From: Segatella maculosa DSM 19339 = JCM 15638
GTDB lineage: Bacteria; Bacteroidota; Bacteroidia; Bacteroidales; Bacteroidaceae
Direction: 5' to 3'
Length of the DNA: 64,000 bases
NCBI RefSeq assembly: GCF_000382385.1
Contig: NZ_KB908320.1
Span: 248,001-312,000, forward strand
A program made the translations under genes and the position numbers. A model generated the notes under the pieces. That model was not told the DNA's origin. It did no database searches and was given only the letters and a program-made list of their open reading frames with translations. This document shows, piece after piece, positions 5,148 to 64,000 of this stretch (its first letter is position 1; every line of letters begins with the position of its first letter).

Positions 5148-5540
5148 CGAAACACGGTATAATGGACATTTGGTAGGCTGAAACCGCCATAAGATGAACA
5201 GCCCTCCCTGCGCAGGCATGAGGCCCCTGCTCCCCGAGTATCAGAAACAGCATACACGAACGCCCTCAAAGTAGACTGACGGTAGGCGGTTCGGAGATTG
5301 AAAGAGATTTCGATTGCCCCAGTTAAAAGATAAAAAACTCGTAGCGTATCAGAGATGAACTTGATTGTCGACAAGGGCGGCAATCAAATCCTCACGATGG
5401 TACGCCTTCAGAAGACCTTTTATCGCAAGTAAGGCAAAGGACAGCCATGCCACCCTCACGATGGTAGAGCGTAGCACGGGATAAAAGAACCTACCCGATA
5501 GCGCTACGGCGTCGGACGACAGTTCCTTTTAATATTTTTT
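5148..5540. other. Intergenic stretch without a gene, with short duplicated fragments
   Basis: No convincing coding sequence or RNA gene was seen. The 13-mer CCTCACGATGGTA occurs twice, at 5390-5402 and 5454-5466. A second fragment, GTAGAGCG(T/C)AGCACG, occurs at about 5464 and again at about 5736. These look like degenerate duplicated pieces and lead into the palindromic array that follows. Confidence 0.5.
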
Positions 5541-5544
5541 ATCA

Positions 5545-5682
5545 TCGCCCACGGGCGACGAACGTTCTTTTTACATTTTTTAGCTTCGCCCGCGGGCGAA
5601 GAGCATTCTTTTTTAATTTTACTATCTTCGCCCGCGGGCGACAAGCGTTCTTTTTTTGTTTTCCGCTAATCTGATGCTTCAG
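5545..5682. repeat. 41-42 bp palindrome array, CGCCCGCGGGCG core (array R1)
   Basis: Three near-identical palindromes, TCGCCC(A/G)CGGGCGA, start at 5545, 5586 and 5628, spaced 41 and 42 bases apart. The spacers are T-rich (for example TTCTTTTTTAATTTTACTAT). A degenerate fourth core, CTGA....TCAG, is centred about 42 bases further on, near 5676. The array lies downstream of the T9SS plug gene and upstream of pfkA. Each palindrome could form a stable GC hairpin in RNA or a cruciform in DNA, but the fixed spacing is not explained by a terminator. Confidence 0.85.
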
Positions 5683-14415: not shown

Positions 14416-14503
14416 GCGAGTTCGGGATAAATCCCAATGGAGGAAAAATTAAAAAAAGAGCTTCGGTGCCTCCGCCGAGACTTCGAGAAACAAAAAATAC
14501 GTA

Positions 14504-14720
14504 GCGGAAACTCCGCCAGAAGCCAGGGGATAAAATACATATCAGTGGAAACTCCGTCGGAACTCAAAAGTTAAAAGACGTATCGGCGGAAGTTCCGCCA
14601 GGAGCCAAAAGTTAAAAGATGTGTTTGCGGAAGTTCCGCTATGAGTTAAAAGTTAAAAGATGTATCCGCGGAAATTCCGCCGAAAGTCAAAAGTTAAAAG
14701 ATGTATTGGCGGGAACCCCG
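14504..14720. repeat. 41 bp palindrome array, GCGGAAGTTCCGC core (array R2)
   Basis: Six cores of the form G(C/T)GGAA(A/G)(C/T)TCCG(C/T) begin at 14504, 14545, 14586, 14627, 14668 and 14709, each exactly 41 bases after the last; the final copy is degenerate. The linker between the later cores is A-rich and similar (CAAAAGTTAAAAGATGT). The array lies between the convergent atpG and dapA genes. Sequence and core differ from array R1, but the period is the same. Confidence 0.92.
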
Positions 14721-30844: not shown

Positions 30845-31110
30845 AAAAGTAGTATCGTTTTCATCAAAAGATACTGCCGTTTTATGGAAAGCTATACCCT
30901 CCCTTTTAAAAAGGTGCGTACTTTTAACTGAAAAGGTATATACTTTTAATTGGAAAGGTATATACGTTTTAACGAAAAGGTATATACCTTTTTGAGGAAA
31001 GATACTGTTGTCTTTTTGATAAGGTGCTATTGTATCATTTAAAAAGTACTATCCCTTCATCAAAAAAGTTTTATCGTTTTACAAAAAACTGTTATCGTTT
31101 TCTCCGGCTT
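30845..31110. repeat. 22 bp repeat array with A-tract, TATATA core and T-tract (array R5)
   Basis: Twelve units are marked by an AAAAG or AAAGG start at about 30845, 30867, 30888, 30910, 30932, 30954, 30976, 30998, 31020, 31042, 31065 and 31085. Period is 21-23 bases, mostly 22. The central units contain GGTATATAC, in one case the full palindrome AAAGGTATATACCTTT, then TTTTAA. Outer units are degenerate. The array lies between two divergent promoters (TonB operon at 30720-30750, small secreted protein at 31255-31285). Confidence 0.85.
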
Positions 31111-50570: not shown

Positions 50571-50880
50571 CTTCCACCATGGTGGAAAGGGGGTGAACAG
50601 AGAAAAAACGCCCGTCTTCCATGGAAGAAATAAAAAAATGTAAAAAAGACGCTCGTCTTCCATGGAAGACGAAGGATATTTTAACGGAAAACATTTTCTT
50701 TCACGGGAGAAACAAAAAAATGTAAAAAGAACGGTCGTCTTCCATGGAAGACAAAGGATTTTTTAACAATCACCTCTTTTCTTCCATGGAAGACGACAAA
50801 AAAACAAGAAATAACCCTTGTCTTCCATGGAATACATTAAAAAAAGAAACAAAAAACATTCGTCTTCCATGGAAGATGAC
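50571..50880. repeat. 41-42 bp palindrome array, TCTTCCATGGAAGA core (array R7)
   Basis: Palindrome centres fall at about 50579, 50621, 50662, 50703, 50744, 50786, 50827 and 50869, spaced 41-42 bases without exception. Seven cores hold CCATGG inside CTTCCATGGAAG, flanked in several by GTC/GAC. The copy at 50703 is degenerate (CTTTCACGGGAGA) but keeps phase. Spacers are A-rich (AAAAAAATGTAAAAAG). The array lies between the convergent cobC and zinc-ribbon genes and fills most of 50346-51002, which has no gene. Confidence 0.93.
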
Positions 50881-54916: not shown

Positions 54917-55114
54917 AGCCGTAGATGTTTTTTAAAACAGAGGGGGATGTCTTTCGAAACAGATGGGGATATCATGAGCATGAGACCCGGGTCTCACAAG
55001 CGCGAGAATGGGATGTCACGAGCGCGAGACCCGGGTCTCATGAACGCGAGAGGGGGATGTAAATGAAATTAGATCCCCCTCTCTTTTGAATTAGAGCTAT
55101 GTCTCTTAAAAAAC
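54917..55114. repeat. 22 bp repeat array, nine units (array R8)
   Basis: Nine units start at 54917, 54939, 54961, 54983, 55005, 55027, 55049, 55071 and 55093, all exactly 22 bases with no indel. The units from 54939 begin AGA; several hold GGGATGT, and units 54983 and 55027 hold the palindrome GAGACCCGGGTCTC instead. The array ends 17 bases after the 3' end of the OprP-type porin gene, as read along its transcript. The opening units (AGATGTTTTTTAAAAC) match array R9. Confidence 0.93.
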
Positions 55115-57934: not shown

Positions 57935-60652
57935 ATGAGTGAGAAAAGAGTTTATACTTTCGGAAACGGTAAGGCCGAAGGTGGAGCAGATATGAGAAAT
58001 CTGCTTGGTGGAAAAGGAGCAAACCTTGCCGAAATGAATTTGATTGGCGTTCCCGTGCCTCCCGGATTTACAATCACGACAGACGTCTGTAACGAATACT
58101 TCGAGAAAGGCAAGCAGGAAGTTGTCAACCTGTTAAAGCAAGAAGTCGAAACTTCGGTCAAGCATATTGAGACCTTGATGAAGTCGAAGTTTGGCGATGT
58201 TGACAACCCACTGCTCGTCAGTGTGCGCTCCGGTGCACGTGCGAGTATGCCAGGCATGATGGATACCATCTTAAACCTTGGTCTTAATGACGAGGTGGTA
58301 GAAGGTTTGGCCCGCAAGACCGGTAATGAACGCTTTGCATACGACAGTTATCGTCGCTTCGTACAGATGTACGGAGATGTCGTCCTCGGCATGAAACCAG
58401 TCAACAAAGAGGATATCGACCCCTTCGAGGCCATCATCATGGACGTGAAGCGGCAGCGTGGAATTACGCTTGACAACGAAATGAACGTCGACGAACTGAA
58501 GCAATTGGTAAGGGCTTTCAAGGCAGCCATCAAGCAGCAGACGGGCAATGACTTCCCCACAGACCCGATGGAACAGTTGTGGGGTGCCATCTGTGCCGTA
58601 TTTGATTCTTGGATGAACGAACGCGCCATTCTTTATCGCAAGATGGAGGGAATTCCTGCTGAATGGGGAACCGCAGTCAATGTTATGGCCATGGTTTTTG
58701 GCAACATGGGAAATACATCGGCTACCGGCGTTTGCTTCAGCAGAGACGCGGCCACAGGCGAGAATTGTTTTAATGGAGAATATTTGGTCAATGCACAAGG
58801 CGAGGACGTTGTTGCAGGAATTCGCACCCCACAGCAGATTACCAAGAAAGGTTCTTTGTGTTGGGCCGAACAACAATGCATCGACGAGAGCGTCCGTGCT
58901 TCAAAGTATCCGTCGATGGAGGAAGCCATGCCCGAGATTTATGCACAATTGAACGATATTCAGCAGAAGTTGGAAGCACACTACCATGACATGCAGGATA
59001 TGGAGTTCACGGTGCAGGAAGGACACCTATGGTTCCTTCAGACACGCAATGGTAAGCGCACCGGCACTGCCATGGTAAAAATAGCCATGGATTTGTTGCG
59101 TGAAGGCGAAATCGACGAGAAAACGGCACTCCTACGTTGTGAGCCTAACAAGTTGGACGAGCTGCTTCACCCCGTATTCGATAAGGAAGCCCAACTCAAT
59201 GCCAAGGTGCTAACGCGAGGCCTCCCTGCAAGTCCGGGTGCAGCCTGCGGTCAAGTCGTTTTCTTTGCCGACGACGCAGAGAGATGGCACGAAGAGGGAC
59301 ATCAGGTCATTATGGTTCGCATCGAGACGAGTCCTGAAGACCTTGCCGGTATGAGTGCAGCCGAAGGCATACTGACCGCACGTGGCGGCATGACCAGCCA
59401 CGCCGCAGTCGTAGCCCGCGGTATGGGAAAGTGTTGTGTCAGCGGTGCCGGTGCCATTAATGTGGACTACAAGGGACGCACGGTCGAAATCGATGGCAAA
59501 CTCATTCACGAAGGTGACTACATTTCCATCAATGGCTCCACGGGCGAAGTCTATCTCGGTGAAGTCAAGACCAAACCAGCCGAAGTCACGGGAGACTTCG
59601 CACAGTTAATGGAGTTATGCCAGAAATATACGAAGCTCGTTGTCCGTACAAATGCTGATACGCCCCATGATGCAGAAGTGGCACGCAATTTCGGCGCGGT
59701 GGGCATCGGTCTGTGCCGCACAGAACACATGTTCTTTGAAAATGAAAAGATAAAGGCCATGCGCGAAATGATACTTTCCGACTCCAAAGAAGGGCGCGAG
59801 AAAGCACTCGAGAAGCTGTTGCCCTATCAGAAGCAAGACTTCTACGGCATCTTGAAAGCGATGGACGGCTACCCTGTCAATATCCGACTGCTCGACCCAC
59901 CCCTACACGAGTTCGTTCCCCACGACCTTGCCGGGCAGAAAGTCATGGCTGAGGAAATGGGACTTTCCGTCGAGGAAATCCAGCACAGAGTGAACTCCCT
60001 AAGCGAACACAATCCGATGCTCGGTCATCGCGGCTGCCGCTTGGGCAACACCTATCCTGAAATAACGGCCATGCAGACGCGTGCCATTCTCGGCGCAGCC
60101 ATCGAGCTGAAGAAAGAAGGCTACCGGCCACAGCCCGAAATCATGGTGCCACTTATCGGCATCGTCAACGAGTTCGATATGCAGAAAGATGTCATTCGCT
60201 CAACGGCAAAAGCCCTTTTCGAGAAAGAAGGTGTCGAGATTTCGTTCAAGGTCGGAACGATGATTGAAGTCCCACGTGCCGCCTTGACAGCCGACTACAT
60301 CGCCAAGGAAGCCGAATACTTCAGCTTCGGGACGAACGACCTCACGCAGATGACGTTCGGATACAGCCGCGACGACATTGCAAGTTTTCTGCCCGTATAT
60401 CTTGAGAAGAAGATACTCAAAGTCGATCCATTCCAAGTCTTAGACCAGACAGGCGTAGGGCAACTTGTCGAAATGGCCGTAGAGAAAGGACGCTTCACCC
60501 GTCCGGACCTGAAGTGTGGCATTTGCGGCGAACATGGTGGCGAGCCTTCGTCCGTCAAATTCTGTCATCGCGTCGGTCTCGACTATGTGAGCTGCTCACC
60601 GTTCCGCGTACCCATCGCCCGATTGGCAGCAGCACAGGCAGCAATAGAATAA
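57935..60652 (+). CDS. ppdK: Pyruvate, phosphate dikinase
   Basis: The 905-residue three-domain enzyme interconverts pyruvate, ATP and Pi with phosphoenolpyruvate, AMP and PPi. It has an N-terminal ATP-binding domain (GGKGANLAEMN), the central phosphohistidine domain with H489 in GGMTSHAAVVARGMG, and a C-terminal PEP/pyruvate barrel with CGICGEHGG. Length matches bacterial PPDK. A TATATTTG -7-like site is at 57885-57892 without a good -33. The terminator is at 60714-60756. Confidence 0.97.
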   Translation: MSEKRVYTFGNGKAEGGADMRNLLGGKGANLAEMNLIGVPVPPGFTITTDVCNEYFEKGKQEVVNLLKQEVETSVKHIETLMKSKFGDVDNPLLVSVRSGARASMPGMMDTILNLGLNDEVVEGLARKTGNERFAYDSYRRFVQMYGDVVLGMKPVNKEDIDPFEAIIMDVKRQRGITLDNEMNVDELKQLVRAFKAAIKQQTGNDFPTDPMEQLWGAICAVFDSWMNERAILYRKMEGIPAEWGTAVNVMAMVFGNMGNTSATGVCFSRDAATGENCFNGEYLVNAQGEDVVAGIRTPQQITKKGSLCWAEQQCIDESVRASKYPSMEEAMPEIYAQLNDIQQKLEAHYHDMQDMEFTVQEGHLWFLQTRNGKRTGTAMVKIAMDLLREGEIDEKTALLRCEPNKLDELLHPVFDKEAQLNAKVLTRGLPASPGAACGQVVFFADDAERWHEEGHQVIMVRIETSPEDLAGMSAAEGILTARGGMTSHAAVVARGMGKCCVSGAGAINVDYKGRTVEIDGKLIHEGDYISINGSTGEVYLGEVKTKPAEVTGDFAQLMELCQKYTKLVVRTNADTPHDAEVARNFGAVGIGLCRTEHMFFENEKIKAMREMILSDSKEGREKALEKLLPYQKQDFYGILKAMDGYPVNIRLLDPPLHEFVPHDLAGQKVMAEEMGLSVEEIQHRVNSLSEHNPMLGHRGCRLGNTYPEITAMQTRAILGAAIELKKEGYRPQPEIMVPLIGIVNEFDMQKDVIRSTAKALFEKEGVEISFKVGTMIEVPRAALTADYIAKEAEYFSFGTNDLTQMTFGYSRDDIASFLPVYLEKKILKVDPFQVLDQTGVGQLVEMAVEKGRFTRPDLKCGICGEHGGEPSSVKFCHRVGLDYVSCSPFRVPIARLAAAQAAIE

Positions 60653-60671
60653 GAGCCTCCCTCCGAAAGCC

Positions 60672-60705
60672 TCTCCCCCGGCCCCTCCCCGAAGAGGGAG
60701 GGGAG
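60672..60705. repeat. GC hairpin/G-tract repeat, copy 1
   Basis: A C-rich run followed by GAGGGAGGGGAG. On the minus strand it holds four G tracts (GGGGAGGGGCCGGGGG and flanks). It lies 20 bases after ppdK. Confidence 0.8.
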
Positions 60706-60713
60706 TGAAATGC

Positions 60714-60756
60714 AAATAGACCTTGCGAACACTTTAGTTCACAAGGTCTATTTTGT
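60714..60756 (+). terminator. Terminator of ppdK
   Basis: AAATAGACCTTGCGAAC (60714-60730) pairs with GTTCACAAGGTCTATTT (60737-60753), one mismatch, 6-base loop, then TTGTTT. The A-rich 5' side may let it work on the other strand too. Confidence 0.8.
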
Positions 60757-60797
60757 TTATCATGCATTATCCATCATTAGCCCGCAAGCTCTCTTCT

Positions 60798-60826
60798 CCC
60801 CTCCCTTGGGAGGGGATGGGGGTGGG
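60798..60826. repeat. GC hairpin/G-tract repeat, copy 2
   Basis: CCCCTCCCTTGGGAGGGG is a near-perfect hairpin and runs on into GATGGGGGTGGG. The plus strand has four G runs of at least three. Confidence 0.85.
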
Positions 60827-60949
60827 CTTTTGGGTGAGGCTTTCCGGGTGTGTATTAAAACGGGGAGGACACACAGACAAGCGAGTTAATCATAAGGTGA
60901 ATTTTGATTTTGACTAAATACAGGTAAGTCGTGCGCCCTCCCCTTGAAA

Positions 60950-60978
60950 CCTCCCCCAACCCCTCCGAAGGAGGGGAG
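60950..60978. repeat. GC hairpin/G-tract repeat, copy 3
   Basis: Inverted relative to copy 2: CCTCCCCCAACCCCTCC, then GAAGGAGGGGAG. The G-rich side is on the minus strand. Confidence 0.82.
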
Positions 60979-61017
60979 CACAAACAGCGTGCAAACTAAT
61001 TCCTCGCAAGCTCGCAG

Positions 61018-61050
61018 CTCCCCCTCCTTTGGAGGAGGTTGGGGGGAGGC
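61018..61050. repeat. GC hairpin/G-tract repeat, copy 4
   Basis: CCCCCTCCTTTGGAGGAGG followed by TTGGGGGGAGG, plus-strand G-rich, adjacent to copy 5 with only a few bases between. Confidence 0.8.
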
Positions 61051-61054
61051 TCTC

Positions 61055-61086
61055 CTCCCCTCCCTTCGGGAGGGGCCGGGGGTGGG
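61055..61086. repeat. GC hairpin/G-tract repeat, copy 5
   Basis: CCCCTCCCTTCGGGAGGGG hairpin with GGGAGGGGCCGGGGGTGGG on the plus strand, a canonical four-tract G-quadruplex motif. It lies 12 bases from the stop of the HU-like gene. Confidence 0.87.
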
Positions 61087-61097
61087 TTTGAGGGCTC

Positions 61098-61538
61098 TCA
61101 ATTCCCGTGCTGCCCTATCCCTCCTTTGCCTTTCTTCTTGTCTTCCACCTGTTCGAAGCTCGCGTCGTTCAGCTCGAAATACTTCTTCGAGGGCATAAGG
61201 TGGACAACGGGCTTCACGATGTGCTTGACAGCATTGAACTTCTCGTCCTTGGGCACCGCCTTACTCTTGAACGAAGGCAGCAGCGTTCCCATGTCGCCGA
61301 ACTCCACCGTGTCGCCGTTGGCCACGAAGTTGCGTGCCGTGGCAATACTCATGTTCAGCACGGCGTGCACCTCCTCGGGCGAGAACGTGGTGTTGTTCGA
61401 CACCGCCTTGCAAAACGAGCGGAAGTCAACTCGCTTGCGCCCCGTGGGAACGGCCACTTGCATGTCAACTCTGTTTTCCTTGCCTTTCACTTTCAGTTTG
61501 CGCAGTCTCAAGACAAACTGCAATGGACGATTTGCCAT
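61098..61538 (-). CDS. HU-like DNA-binding protein
   Basis: The 146-residue protein has the Bacteroidetes HU-HIG type layout: basic N-terminal region (LRLRKLKVKGKENRV), helical dimer region (FRSFCKAVSNNTTFSPEEV), GDTVEFGDMGTLLPSF as the beta arm, and a Lys/Gly tail (KKKGKGGIG). It likely binds DNA as a dimer, but the role (nucleoid or regulation) is unknown. It is longer than classical 90-residue HU. A ribosome site AAAGGA precedes the ATG. Confidence 0.88.
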   Translation of the reverse strand: MANRPLQFVLRLRKLKVKGKENRVDMQVAVPTGRKRVDFRSFCKAVSNNTTFSPEEVHAVLNMSIATARNFVANGDTVEFGDMGTLLPSFKSKAVPKDEKFNAVKHIVKPVVHLMPSKKYFELNDASFEQVEDKKKGKGGIGQHGN

Positions 61539-61641
61539 AGTTATTCCTTTCTTTTAATGCGGTTAAAAAATTGATTGTTATGATGATAAATCTCTCATTT
61601 CCTCTTGTCGCTTCCGGCCCTTCCCGCCCCTTTTTGGGAAA

Positions 61642-61773
61642 CATCTAGATGTTTTTTAAAAAAGATCTAGATGTTTTTCCAAAAAGATCAGGATGTTTTT
61701 TCAAAAAGATCAGGATGTTTTTTCAAAAAGATCTAGATCTTTTTCCCATTACATCCCTATCTTTTTCCAAACG
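61642..61773. repeat. 22 bp repeat array, GATCNGGATG type (array R9)
   Basis: Six units start at 61642, 61664, 61686, 61708, 61730 and 61752, exactly 22 bases apart. They read as a core (ATCTAGAT or ATCAGGAT) with T-tract GTTTTTT and A-tract CAAAAA between cores. The last unit is degenerate. It lies 34 bases after the 3' end of the fimbrillin-like gene, as read along its transcript, and shares GATGTTTTTT with array R8. Confidence 0.93.
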
Positions 61774-61806
61774 GGCGGAAATGTGGATTGCATTCGGGCC
61801 ACAGTC

Positions 61807-63528
61807 TCACTCGAACGCCCGCACTACAAGACCAAGCCTACGGCTACTGCGACCCACGTACATGCTCGGGGTGCCGGCGCCGCCAAACCTGGAAAAATAC
61901 AGGATGTACGCAGCTACAGGTTGCTGCGGATGGGCATTCGACGACCAATATTGACCCAGCACTCCTAAAGAGACTAGTATGTTCCCGCCGTAGCTGCCTG
62001 TCGTGGGTAGGAAGAAGTAGTCACCTGGGGTGGAAAGCGCGCTGGAACTGCTGATAATGGGAATGTAGCCCCCGGGAAACGAAGAGCCGGGAGTGATACG
62101 CCAATCTGTGTCGGTGCCGGGAGAAGTATTAGCCTGATAATTGCTCGGGAATCTATTCGAGAAGCGCGCTGTACCACCATTCGCAGCAGAGAAAGCCTGA
62201 CCACTGCCACTGTTGTCGCGGATAATGGCGGCCTTCTTTTTCAACCACACACCACCATTAGCAACCAAGTGCCCGTTGCTGACGGCTATATTGCTCTGCC
62301 AATGAGGATCGCCCAGCGTGACATACCAGCACAGCTCGTTGACATTGGGGCAGATGGCGCACGACTGACTGGCTGTGATAACCCCGCTACCCTCGTGAAA
62401 CCAGCGATTATTCAGCTCTCCCGGATTGTAGTCCTTGTCAGGATAATGCTGCCCTTGACCACCGTTAACTGTTGGTGCAAAGCTCTCGTAGCCATACCAG
62501 AAGGGATTTACGGCATCCCACATGTAGTAGCTCCCAACGACAGGGACAGGAACAGGCGTCTGTGGCGTGATGTCGTAAATAACGTCATTGATTTCACCCT
62601 TGTTCAAGGTGACATTTGTGAGTGTCTGCACGACGGGGCCTTCCACATTGTTCGCCCAGTCCCTTATCGTGTAGTCGATCAAAAAATCGTAGGTGCCGGG
62701 GGGAATGGCAAGGTAGGTAGCATTGGCCGTCTGGTTGGCGGTGGTAGAGAGAGGGAAGTTTTGGAGGGTAACTTCGATGTTGTTGTAGACAGGGGGAGTG
62801 CCTGTGCCAATATTCTCTCCATCAAAAATGAACAAACCAGAAATATGCCCACCATTGAGGACCGTGATTTTGATATTCTTCAGCTGCACATTGGGGGCCA
62901 AAGCAGCATTTCCGCAACGGGGCAGAAAACAGAGATAGGAGGACTTGTGCGACAATGTAAAGTTGAATTTGTCGGGATTGCCCGTGTTGTGTGCTACGCC
63001 CGAACCGCAGTCGCCCCAATCGCCAGCACGGCTGAAGTCGTTGGCCGAGAAGCGGCTCTGGTTAGTTGCTATCGATACAAGCATGTGTTTACCAACCGAA
63101 GGCAAAAAACCGGAAATTCCCGTATAGCGCACTTCGCAGCCGTCAGCATAGTCGGACTTACTGCCTGGCAGGGTGAACTCTGCGCTGGCGCCGCCATCGT
63201 GGAGTTCTATACCTATACTCTGTTGCCAATTCCCATTCTTGTCTTTCACCCAGATATTGTCGCTGCTTGTCCAATAGGCGTCGGCTCCGTTACCGGGTGT
63301 GTGTTTGATGTTCGTGCGTGTCTTCGCGCCGGCAAACTCGTCTTCATCTATGAAGCGGCGCTTTGCCGAAATCTTTGTGTCATTGGTCGCGAAGACTACG
63401 CCGCCTTTCGGTGCTTCCGTTCCGTTCTCTTTCTTTTTGTCCTGTGCAATTTCTTCATTGGTACAAGCTGCAAGCAATACCGCCATCATGAATAGTTGGC
63501 CAGTCTTTATTATTGTCTTTACTTTCAT
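61807..63528 (-). CDS. Fimbrillin-family lipoprotein with FISUMP-like C-terminus
   Basis: The 573-residue protein has a lipoprotein signal (MMAVLLAACTN), then fimbrillin-type domains (for example WTSSDNIWVKD and IPPGTYDFLIDYTIRD). The C-terminal part resembles the Fib_succ_major/FISUMP domain (YFFLPTTGSYG, GQYWSS, and a final GLVVRAFE). Such proteins are surface fimbria or adhesin components, secreted as lipoproteins. The small gene upstream (63595-63828) probably belongs to the same transcript. The ligand is unknown. Confidence 0.85.
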   Translation of the reverse strand: MKVKTIIKTGQLFMMAVLLAACTNEEIAQDKKKENGTEAPKGGVVFATNDTKISAKRRFIDEDEFAGAKTRTNIKHTPGNGADAYWTSSDNIWVKDKNGNWQQSIGIELHDGGASAEFTLPGSKSDYADGCEVRYTGISGFLPSVGKHMLVSIATNQSRFSANDFSRAGDWGDCGSGVAHNTGNPDKFNFTLSHKSSYLCFLPRCGNAALAPNVQLKNIKITVLNGGHISGLFIFDGENIGTGTPPVYNNIEVTLQNFPLSTTANQTANATYLAIPPGTYDFLIDYTIRDWANNVEGPVVQTLTNVTLNKGEINDVIYDITPQTPVPVPVVGSYYMWDAVNPFWYGYESFAPTVNGGQGQHYPDKDYNPGELNNRWFHEGSGVITASQSCAICPNVNELCWYVTLGDPHWQSNIAVSNGHLVANGGVWLKKKAAIIRDNSGSGQAFSAANGGTARFSNRFPSNYQANTSPGTDTDWRITPGSSFPGGYIPIISSSSALSTPGDYFFLPTTGSYGGNILVSLGVLGQYWSSNAHPQQPVAAYILYFSRFGGAGTPSMYVGRSSRRLGLVVRAFE

Positions 63529-63563
63529 TTGCTCTTTCCTTTTAATTATTCTACAAGTTTATT

Positions 63564-63593
63564 CTCCCTCCCTTTGGGAGGACCGGGGTGGGT
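63564..63593. repeat. GC hairpin/G-tract repeat, copy 6
   Basis: CTCCCTCCCTTTGGGAGG then ACCGGGGTGGGT. Plus-strand G tracts. It lies between the fimbrillin gene and the small gene. Confidence 0.82.
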
Positions 63594-63594
63594 A

Positions 63595-63828
63595 TTACTC
63601 TTCCCACACATTATAGCTTGGCAGGGTGTTCTCCCCTCCTTCGGAGGGGTTGGGGGAGGTCTCCTCCCATTCTTCATCACTATACTGCTTGGCATTGCCA
63701 AACGTTCCACCTTGTCCGATGTGCTTGTGCTGACCACTGACGGCCTGCAGGAGATAGTCTTCCTGCATCGGTATGACTGTGCACCGAGGGGCAATGTAAT
63801 GTAGTCTTTCTTTCTGTTCTTTGTTCAT
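63595..63828 (-). CDS. Small protein with a repeat-derived insertion
   Basis: The 77-residue protein starts MNKEQKERLHYIAPRC and carries TVIPMQEDYLLQAVSGQH, a pattern common in small Prevotella proteins beside fimbrillin genes. Residues TSPNPSEGGEN near the end are encoded by copy 7 of the GC hairpin repeat (63631-63665), inserted in frame between EEWEE and the final VWEE. The start at 63828 is preferred over 63885, because the extra 19 residues look non-coding. Function is unknown. Confidence 0.72.
   Translation of the reverse strand: MNKEQKERLHYIAPRCTVIPMQEDYLLQAVSGQHKHIGQGGTFGNAKQYSDEEWEETSPNPSEGGENTLPSYNVWEE
63631..63665. repeat. GC hairpin/G-tract repeat, copy 7, inside a gene
   Basis: CTCCCCTCCTTCGGAGGGG then TTGGGGGAGG. 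The plus strand is G-rich. It lies wholly inside the coding sequence of the small protein and keeps the frame open. Confidence 0.87.
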
Positions 63829-63894
63829 AATCTCTAATTTATAGGGTAAATATTCTTTTGCTTTGTTTTCTTTGTCTCGTTGCATGCCTGGCGC

Positions 63895-63992
63895 ATGTAG
63901 GGACGCACGGCTCGTGCGTCCGCTCCAATGGCTTGTTAACTGCCAACTTGTTAACTGTGGTGGGCGGACGCACGAGCCGTGCGTCCCTACAT
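63895..63992. repeat. 29 bp perfect inverted repeat, arms themselves palindromic
   Basis: The arm at 63895-63923 and its exact reverse complement at 63964-63992 flank a 40-base spacer. Each arm contains GGACGCACGGCTCGTGCGTC, which is internally almost self-complementary. The spacer has a direct repeat CTTGTTAACTG (63932 and 63947). It is a dispersed, REP-like element by appearance. A degenerate single arm is at 45811. Confidence 0.88.
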
Positions 63993-64000
63993 TTTGCTCC

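Follow-up and report, generated by a model that had tools for sequence, protein, structure and literature searches.

How does a short palindrome scattered through a bacterial genome come to be read as part of a protein? The question is raised by a small gene of Segatella maculosa DSM 19339 = JCM 15638 in the window, i.e., the whole stretch of 64,000 nucleotides analyzed here. The earlier note on this DNA had proposed that a dispersed repeat is inserted in frame in this gene, that the encoded peptide looks foreign to the rest of the protein, and that the locus shows the repeat to be capable of moving into coding sequence and adding protein segments.

A palindrome read as ten codons of a small gene

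The repeat does lie in frame inside the small coding sequence, with coding sequence on either side (Table 1). It is 30 nt long and fills ten whole codons (ACC TCC CCC AAC CCC TCC GAA GGA GGG GAG), and the C-terminal part of the protein, as translated from the minus-strand ORF, reads ...SDEEWEE-TSPNPSEGGE-NTLPSYNVWEE*. The related copy that follows the stop codon, absent from the earlier note, has its counterpart in a similar arrangement behind the P. oulorum homologue (L127).

Table 1. Positions in the window of the small gene, its neighbors, and the repeat copies around it
Feature	Position	Strand	Basis or remark
Small protein gene, 77 aa, ATG start	63595..63828	-	ORF reading; upstream of lipoprotein-like and HU-HIG genes
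30-nt palindrome in frame, codons 57-66, peptide TSPNPSEGGE	63631..63660	-	Sequence, genome copy search
C-terminal tail NTLPSYNVWEE, 3' of repeat	63598..63630	-	
Related repeat copy, first base directly after the small gene's stop codon	63564..63594	-	Reads TACCCACCCCGGTCCTCCCAAAGGGAGGGAG
Lipoprotein-like gene, 573 aa, downstream of small gene	61807..63528	-	No family above cut-off
HU-HIG DNA-binding protein gene, end GGIGQHGN	61098..61538	-	PF18291, E 3.4e-15
Extragenic copy, 0 mismatches in 24-mer	60949..60978	+	
Extragenic, more distant copy	60675..60705	+	Palindrome search
Extragenic, more distant copy, family D7	60791..60830	-	Palindrome search
Extragenic, more distant copy, family D7	61013..61052	-	
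Extragenic, more distant copy, family D7	61050..61089	-	Palindrome search

In the 3.31-Mb S. maculosa genome, a 24-mer of the element is matched 95 times with ≤3 mismatches, compared with 1 match for a reversed control pattern, and strict palindromes of the form CCCCTCC-N1-8-GGAGGGG number 169, compared with 9 for the control. The repeat is thus not a product of chance, and the segment that had looked foreign is repeat derived. Recovery and alignment of the full set of 95 gave the 30-nt consensus GCCTCCCCCRRCCCCTCCRAAGGAGGGGAG, again ten codons long, which starts with GCCTCC and ends with GGGGAG between variable flanks. Stop codons are absent from all six frames in 85 of the 95 copies, against a fraction of 0.485 among 20,000 shuffles of the element. 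At ≤2 mismatches the 24-mer is present in 124 of the 398 genomes of the genus, about one third. The family exists as 30-nt monomers and as inverted pairs (78 to 178 nt in eight pairs, including a few flank bases), the inverted, head-out order being found in 10 of 20 close neighbor pairs in S. maculosa and in 12 of 25 in the nine other genomes described below. Pairs such as GCCTCCCC...GGGGAGGC in L305 and L319 have terminal inverted repeats, a feature of miniature inverted-repeat transposable elements (MITEs); monomers have an internal palindrome only. A special RNA structure was set aside: two hairpins form, yet the stretch as a whole is no better than its shuffles (z -1.26; 20 of 200 as good), and no Rfam family matched above the gathering cut-off in positions 60400 to 64000 of the window.

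The reading frame is short, no Pfam or NCBIfam family matches its product above the cut-off, and the four paralogues with the short repeat variant reach only 10 to 13 bits of coding score, all of which would suit a spurious ORF overlapping a merely extragenic repeat. This reading is highly improbable, given that dS exceeds dN in all 15 homologue pairs (a hand-picked set), that the family profile matches in 102 of the 398 genomes of the genus, the source genome counted, and that the N-terminal motif of the family is conserved. A single-sequence search gave matches in 7 of 100 relatives, again counting the source. The dS/dN comparison and the breadth of the family support translation of the small gene and indicate that it is under purifying selection; the repeat-derived segment is almost surely translated with it.

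Several observations concern the neighborhood of the gene in their own right. The ending GGIGQHGN is shared by 14 predicted genes of the source genome, the one scanned being an HU-HIG gene and two at contig ends looking alike, so that they may be one gene; 25 of the 95 repeats lie ≤600 nt from a gene with this ending. The lipoproteins of these loci, including the one in Table 1, have C termini that diverge around a YWSS-like motif, recalling variable lectin-like domains, and among three lipoproteins scanned beside small genes, one (L088) matches the fimbrillin-like family Mfa_like_1. A diversity-generating retroelement behind these variable lipoproteins was set aside, as no RVT_1 reverse transcriptase matched in the source genome. 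The idea that the small gene came from a phage or plasmid was likewise set aside, its DNA being unmatched in plasmids and its protein in phages. A second palindrome, ATGTAGGGACGCACGGCTCGTGCGTCC..., stands at 63895-63992, where it forms a perfect 29-nt inverted pair, and also precedes all six paralogues that carry the repeat. Tandem arrays with a period of about 22 or 41 to 44 nt occur in the window at 5515-5655, 14503-14706, 30919-31101, 50603-50876, 54924-55060, and 61639-61744, several with palindromic cores.

Gene ends, paralogues, and the age of the in-frame copy

Genes are strongly avoided by the repeat in the source genome. While 75% of the examined DNA is called coding by our home-made gene finder, the same finder places 91 of the 95 close copies outside predicted genes and the other four inside, all in the small-protein family. 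Palindrome searches gave the same picture, with 4 of 143 short, 2 of 10 long, and 0 of 72 CCCTCCC palindromes in genes (overlapping sets counted in the same segments), all six belonging to the small-protein family, and no other gene of the source genome was found to hold the repeat with coding sequence on both sides. Since in-gene copies are confined to one family, the window alone does not show the repeat invading genes at large.

A copy lies within 40 nt of 21 predicted gene ends; 18 of these are 3' ends, and there the copy is oriented like the gene. This arrangement favors a stop-loss route into the protein, by which a repeat located directly downstream of the small gene was taken into the frame once its stop codon disappeared, reading then continuing through the repeat into the present tail. 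In three paralogues, L047 to L049, one A separates the stop TAG from the repeat GCCTCCCCC, which leaves that route open, and two ORFs (C13:5783 and C7:9239) begin coding-like and, past a repeat, become non-coding-like. However, the motif that ends the tail beyond the repeat is also found in repeat-free members of the family (TTYNPWDE in L119, GSVWEE in L122, NGYSLWEE in L125), and the present stop is itself already followed by another repeat, likewise in P. oulorum. We regard stop loss at this gene as quite unlikely. One of the two crossing ORFs, L011 (G000:C13:5783), encodes a Lin1244_N-like product (a weak match, below the cut-off), reads the repeat in the PNPSEGGE frame, and then enters non-coding-looking sequence; it is a candidate for such an extension.

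The source genome has 15 paralogues of the small gene that we found, a lower bound because the profile search scored 14 candidates per genome and more may exist. Four carry the short repeat, two (L045 and L046) a longer variant, and nine none. In all six carriers the repeat stands in frame at one site, between EEWEE and a terminal SYN(V/A)W(E/G)E. Among 102 homologue tails scored, with individual scores read for the best 45, an intact or near-intact repeat was recognized in 7 and a decayed-looking one in 5; the other 90 had lower scores, borderline ones from genome G248 among them. A tail was called decayed at a score of 14 to 17 that also exceeded all 60 of its codon shuffles; four genes of G248 (L131, L168, L171, and L172) also beat their shuffles with lower values. 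Given 102 tails and two forms of the repeat, some passes by chance are to be expected, and L104 is probably one of them. Homologues without the segment thus exist, as had been anticipated, both among the paralogues of the source genome and in other species. The expectation that such proteins would end after EEWEE was mostly wrong: most continue into another variable tail, often with a W and an acidic end, and only a few stop at about that position (...TEENEE in L032, ...DEDEE in L099).

The repeat-bearing paralogues are mosaics. L031 and L044 are identical at 65 of 72 positions in the N-terminal part, 54 of 93 in the middle, 37 of 39 in the insert, and 27 of 27 at the C-terminal end, while for L031 and L038 the corresponding counts are 37 of 75, 78 of 93, 39 of 39, and 27 of 27. 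The tail DNA beyond the repeat is the same in L031 and L038, and L041 and L044 differ by one base each. Judged by its N-terminal part, L044 clusters with genes from other species that lack the repeat (support 97/95, in a tree from 49 columns with many open forks). The mosaic structure implies that the repeat-bearing tail moved between paralogues, probably by homologous exchange.

The P. oulorum homologue L127 retains a decayed repeat, TSPTTSEEGENTQPNYDMLEE, with a fuller reading EEWDENQTSPTTSEEGENTQPNYDMLEE and then TACCCACCTACCCCTCCAAAGGGGGAG at its stop, and groups with L038, L041, L045, and L046 (support 91/83). By a count made by eye, it differs at 6 of the 30 positions of the element and at 7 of 36 in the flanks, and neither the 24-mer (≤2 mismatches) nor the 13-mer CCCCCANCCCCTC was found in the P. 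oulorum genome (G187). On the ground of L127, a recent insertion at the small-gene locus was rejected. The claim that this locus is a sign of the repeat moving is not supported in its recent sense, as six paralogues share the site and P. oulorum keeps a decayed copy.

Exchange could also account for the repeat itself: gene conversion with other copies may have acted on a preexisting similar tail (T-S-x-x-S-E-E-G), with no insertion of a mobile unit. The differences counted in P. oulorum, set beside short copies of the source genome that match the consensus, fits this reading, as do the close paralogues L041 and L045/L046, which carry unlike variants of the repeat between the same flanks. Presence and absence of the repeat in unrelated genes elsewhere, described below, show however that the family also adds length, and conversion alone seems to us unlikely.

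A paralogue of genome G248, L132, has a near-intact long variant in frame, and several of its sister genes have graded look-alikes; L132 may represent a second capture or else an older relic. A dispersed family of such close copies in G248 was set aside, as the 13-mer CCCCCANCCCCTC occurs there once, in the small gene, and a 38-mer of that copy once at ≤3 mismatches. Abundance of the repeat alone was likewise rejected as the cause of in-gene copies: genomes G003, G026, and G387 have 65, 86, and 34 long palindromes, yet none of the 9, 4, and 14 homologues examined in them scores as a carrier of one.

In-frame copies in nine other genomes

A search with the 29-residue tail found the peptide in other proteins, with matches at E ≤0.1 in 21 of the 398 genomes of the genus, the source genome included, and many of them inside long ORFs. 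Nine of the 20 other genomes were picked for their in-gene matches and moderate copy number, and all 141 of their copies at ≤2 mismatches were taken and recovered. On 63 fetched stretches, some overlapping, 75 of the 141 copies proved internal, i.e., in frame and flanked on both sides by ≥10 bits of coding signal in a single frame; the number is 79 at 5 bits, 57 at 30 bits, and 40 at 50 bits. By genome, the internal copies amount to 23/27 in G352, 4/5 in G209, 3/3 in G383, 5/22 in G364, 11/23 in G051, 7/7 in G295, 6/21 in G240, 9/18 in G336, and 7/15 in G181. When the 16 peptide matches through which these genomes had been chosen (13 being internal) are left aside, 62 of 125 copies remain internal. 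Of 229 random positions in the nine genomes, 162 qualify as in-gene by the same rule, so that genes are not preferred over chance and are mildly avoided. The proposal that the repeat can enter coding sequence is well supported by the 75 internal copies of these nine genomes; in the source genome, in-gene copies were found in one family only.

The internal copies are read mostly in one frame: PNPSEGG in 50 of the 75, PPSEGLG in 14, PSFGGVG in 7, PLLRRGWG in 3, PQPLRRR in 1, and PPTPPKEG in none (chi-square 145, a bias inflated by the choice of genomes through the PNPSEGG-type peptide). The dominance of hydrophilic, small-residue readings among in-frame copies suggests that selection keeps the harmless ones.

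The host genes resemble those of valyl-tRNA synthetase, the DNA polymerase III alpha subunit, glycogen synthase, and beta-galactosidase. Gene names in other species come from PDB matches where these were run; the remaining names (DsbD, PurF, PurL, glycogen synthase, and others) are what we take the genes to be. Several hosts are longer than their solved relatives where the repeat lies. In the beta-galactosidase-like protein, 43 unmatched residues stand where positions of 7cwd are 6 apart (412|418 versus 420|464 in the query), and in the pullulanase-like protein, 29 residues stand where 6jeq has 2 (304|307 versus 288|318). The DnaE-like protein exceeds 2hpi by 29 residues over the unmatched region in which the repeats lie (322|368 in 2hpi versus 334|409). 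The inserts of the beta-galactosidase-like and DnaE-like genes are each an inverted repeat pair, and that of the pullulanase-like gene looks like one from its peptide. In the valyl-tRNA synthetase-like protein the repeat stretch is longer than in 1gax, and two species (L219 and L293) carry it at the same site in unequal decay.

Presence and absence were also seen between species. The glycogen-synthase-like gene L245 of G352 has the repeat and the 65% identical L081 of the source genome lacks it, and the PurF-like gene L319 of G336 has an inverted pair, starting GCCTCCCC and ending GGGGAGGC, that is missing from the 79% identical homologue L262 of G352. No target-site duplication was found, the junctions L319/L262 and L245/L081 being too diverged. 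UvrA is weak as a case of insertion because the net gain is small, and MetRS is weak because the site is a variable linker. In EtfB, four species share the site, and the repeat region is unmatched in the two solved homologues shown.

Two further arrangements were observed. In L252 (G352:C119:10157-10304), tandem 39-nt copies within one gene encode SPDPSKGGEIIPPSPDPSKGGEIIPPSPGPSKGGE, an in-frame amplification of the peptide. In G336 and G051 (L305, L319, L296, and L297), a composite of about 100 nt recurs, with inverted repeats around a spacer in a MITE-like manner; the spacer peptide is often DV...NQT, and the composite is in frame in the DnaE-, PurF-, and DsbD-like genes and in another gene.

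A model of capture and the known repeat systems

Altogether, we consider it probable that a REP-like (repetitive extragenic palindrome) repeat lodged in frame in the small-protein family before the split of S. maculosa and P. oulorum and then spread among the paralogues; the same repeat family lies in frame within proteins of other species. We propose a model in which some activity distributes copies of a small palindromic element, free of stop codons, over the genome, each copy arriving by DNA insertion. One copy would have come to lie between EEWEE and the terminal x-W-E-E of the small protein in a single old event, placed before the separation of the two species by the one decayed homologue; duplication and exchange of gene ends would have then spread it among paralogues, two of which may have switched to the longer variant. 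The captured copy would since have served as an inherited part of the protein and as a shared stretch for the exchange of tails. In the source genome at large, selection or targeting would leave the element outside genes, often behind stop codons. Once in a reading frame, the element would persist only in tolerated frames and places, with purifying selection filtering both frame and site and the peptide being mostly tolerated rather than useful.

The comparison covers one genome per species, and the insertion event itself is not directly seen. Net gain of length at the small-gene site is not proven, because H. marshii L125 has a tail of equal length with no obvious repeat; as the tail region is also hypervariable in the family, replacement instead of net insertion is possible there. 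Stop loss or conversion could likewise have been the first step at this locus.

A broader reading, to which we give an even chance, is that a REP-like family shifts its lifestyle between related species of the Prevotella group: kept outside genes in some, it would be in others a largely intraprotein, hydrophilic module of 10 residues (single, tandem, or in inverted pairs), and besides a recombination handle that swaps the tails of small proteins between paralogues. If true, a genus whose members are common in the gut and mouth would possess an extensive and so far unreported equivalent of the Rickettsia elements. The best-known protein-coding palindromes are those of Rickettsia, whose members are intracellular and reduced; the present ones are found in a large, free-growing genus for which hundreds of genomes can be compared, and in which in-frame copies in essential-looking genes, empty sites in relatives, and decayed copies are all available. 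Tests become feasible of the rate at which protein segments are added by mobile DNA, of the sites and frames that tolerate them, and of whether any such segment acquires a function. As a warning, SPNPSEGGE-like stretches in such proteins are repeat derived and not features of a domain.

Rickettsia palindromic elements (RPEs) were reportedly described in 2000 and 2002 by Ogata and colleagues. RPEs are palindromic repeats found in frame in unrelated genes, with both intergenic and in-gene copies (PMC10969869, PMC5896051, PMC3733652); the first are given as about 150 bp in a review, and RPE-4 and RPE-6 are counted among short CGTC repeats (PMC3733652). The present repeat resembles RPEs in its in-frame presence within ORFs of unrelated function (75 of 141 copies in nine genomes) and in a preferred frame giving a compatible peptide (50 of 75 copies in one frame, a bias partly due to the choice of genomes). 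The present unit measures 30 nt, single or in inverted pairs, beside RPEs that range from short CGTC repeats to about 150 bp; it belongs to Prevotella-like Bacteroidota, and the likeness drawn here is one of description. Being in frame inside many ordinary enzymes of related species, it acts as a portable protein segment in the manner of RPEs.

The GTAG- and CGTC-tagged REPs surveyed by Di Nocera and colleagues in 2013 are palindromes of 20 to 40 nt in high copy number, mostly intergenic near 3' ends, with some copies, single or dimeric, inside genes for repair, replication, and tRNA synthetases, and hypothetical proteins of <120 aa were excluded from the survey (PMC3733652). Size, copy number, and symmetry of the present repeat (30 nt, 95 copies, 169 strict palindromes) agree with those features. 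The mostly intergenic location near 3' ends agrees in the source genome only, 75 of 141 copies being intragenic in the nine others. Neither the GTAG nor the CGTC tetranucleotide stands at either end of the consensus of the 95 copies, in contrast to the tagged REPs as characterized there. A mobilizer of the Y1/RAYT type was ruled out for the source genome, in which no Y1_Tnp transposase (PF01797) matched, with 5 of 14 control genomes giving matches. RAYT is a feature of GTAG REPs, and CGTC REPs likewise lack it (PMC3733652).

Repeat units of QMITE in Coxiella burnetii extend or enter ORFs in frame (PMC5896051). The present repeat shares this in-frame entry, whereas QMITE is a named MITE family of another phylum, likened here by that description. 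Porphyromonas gingivalis, the host of the MITE BrickBuilt, belongs to the same bacterial order as S. maculosa. BrickBuilt is described as exclusively intergenic and made of 23-nt tandem units (PMC4596501), unlike the in-frame 30-nt palindromes found here. Our literature search, which covered few subscription journals, found no published description of this repeat in Bacteroidota. We regard the repeat as a new family of REP- and RPE-like protein-coding palindromes: it works like RPEs and intragenic REPs, yet without the GTAG or CGTC tag and, in the source genome, without the Y1 transposase.
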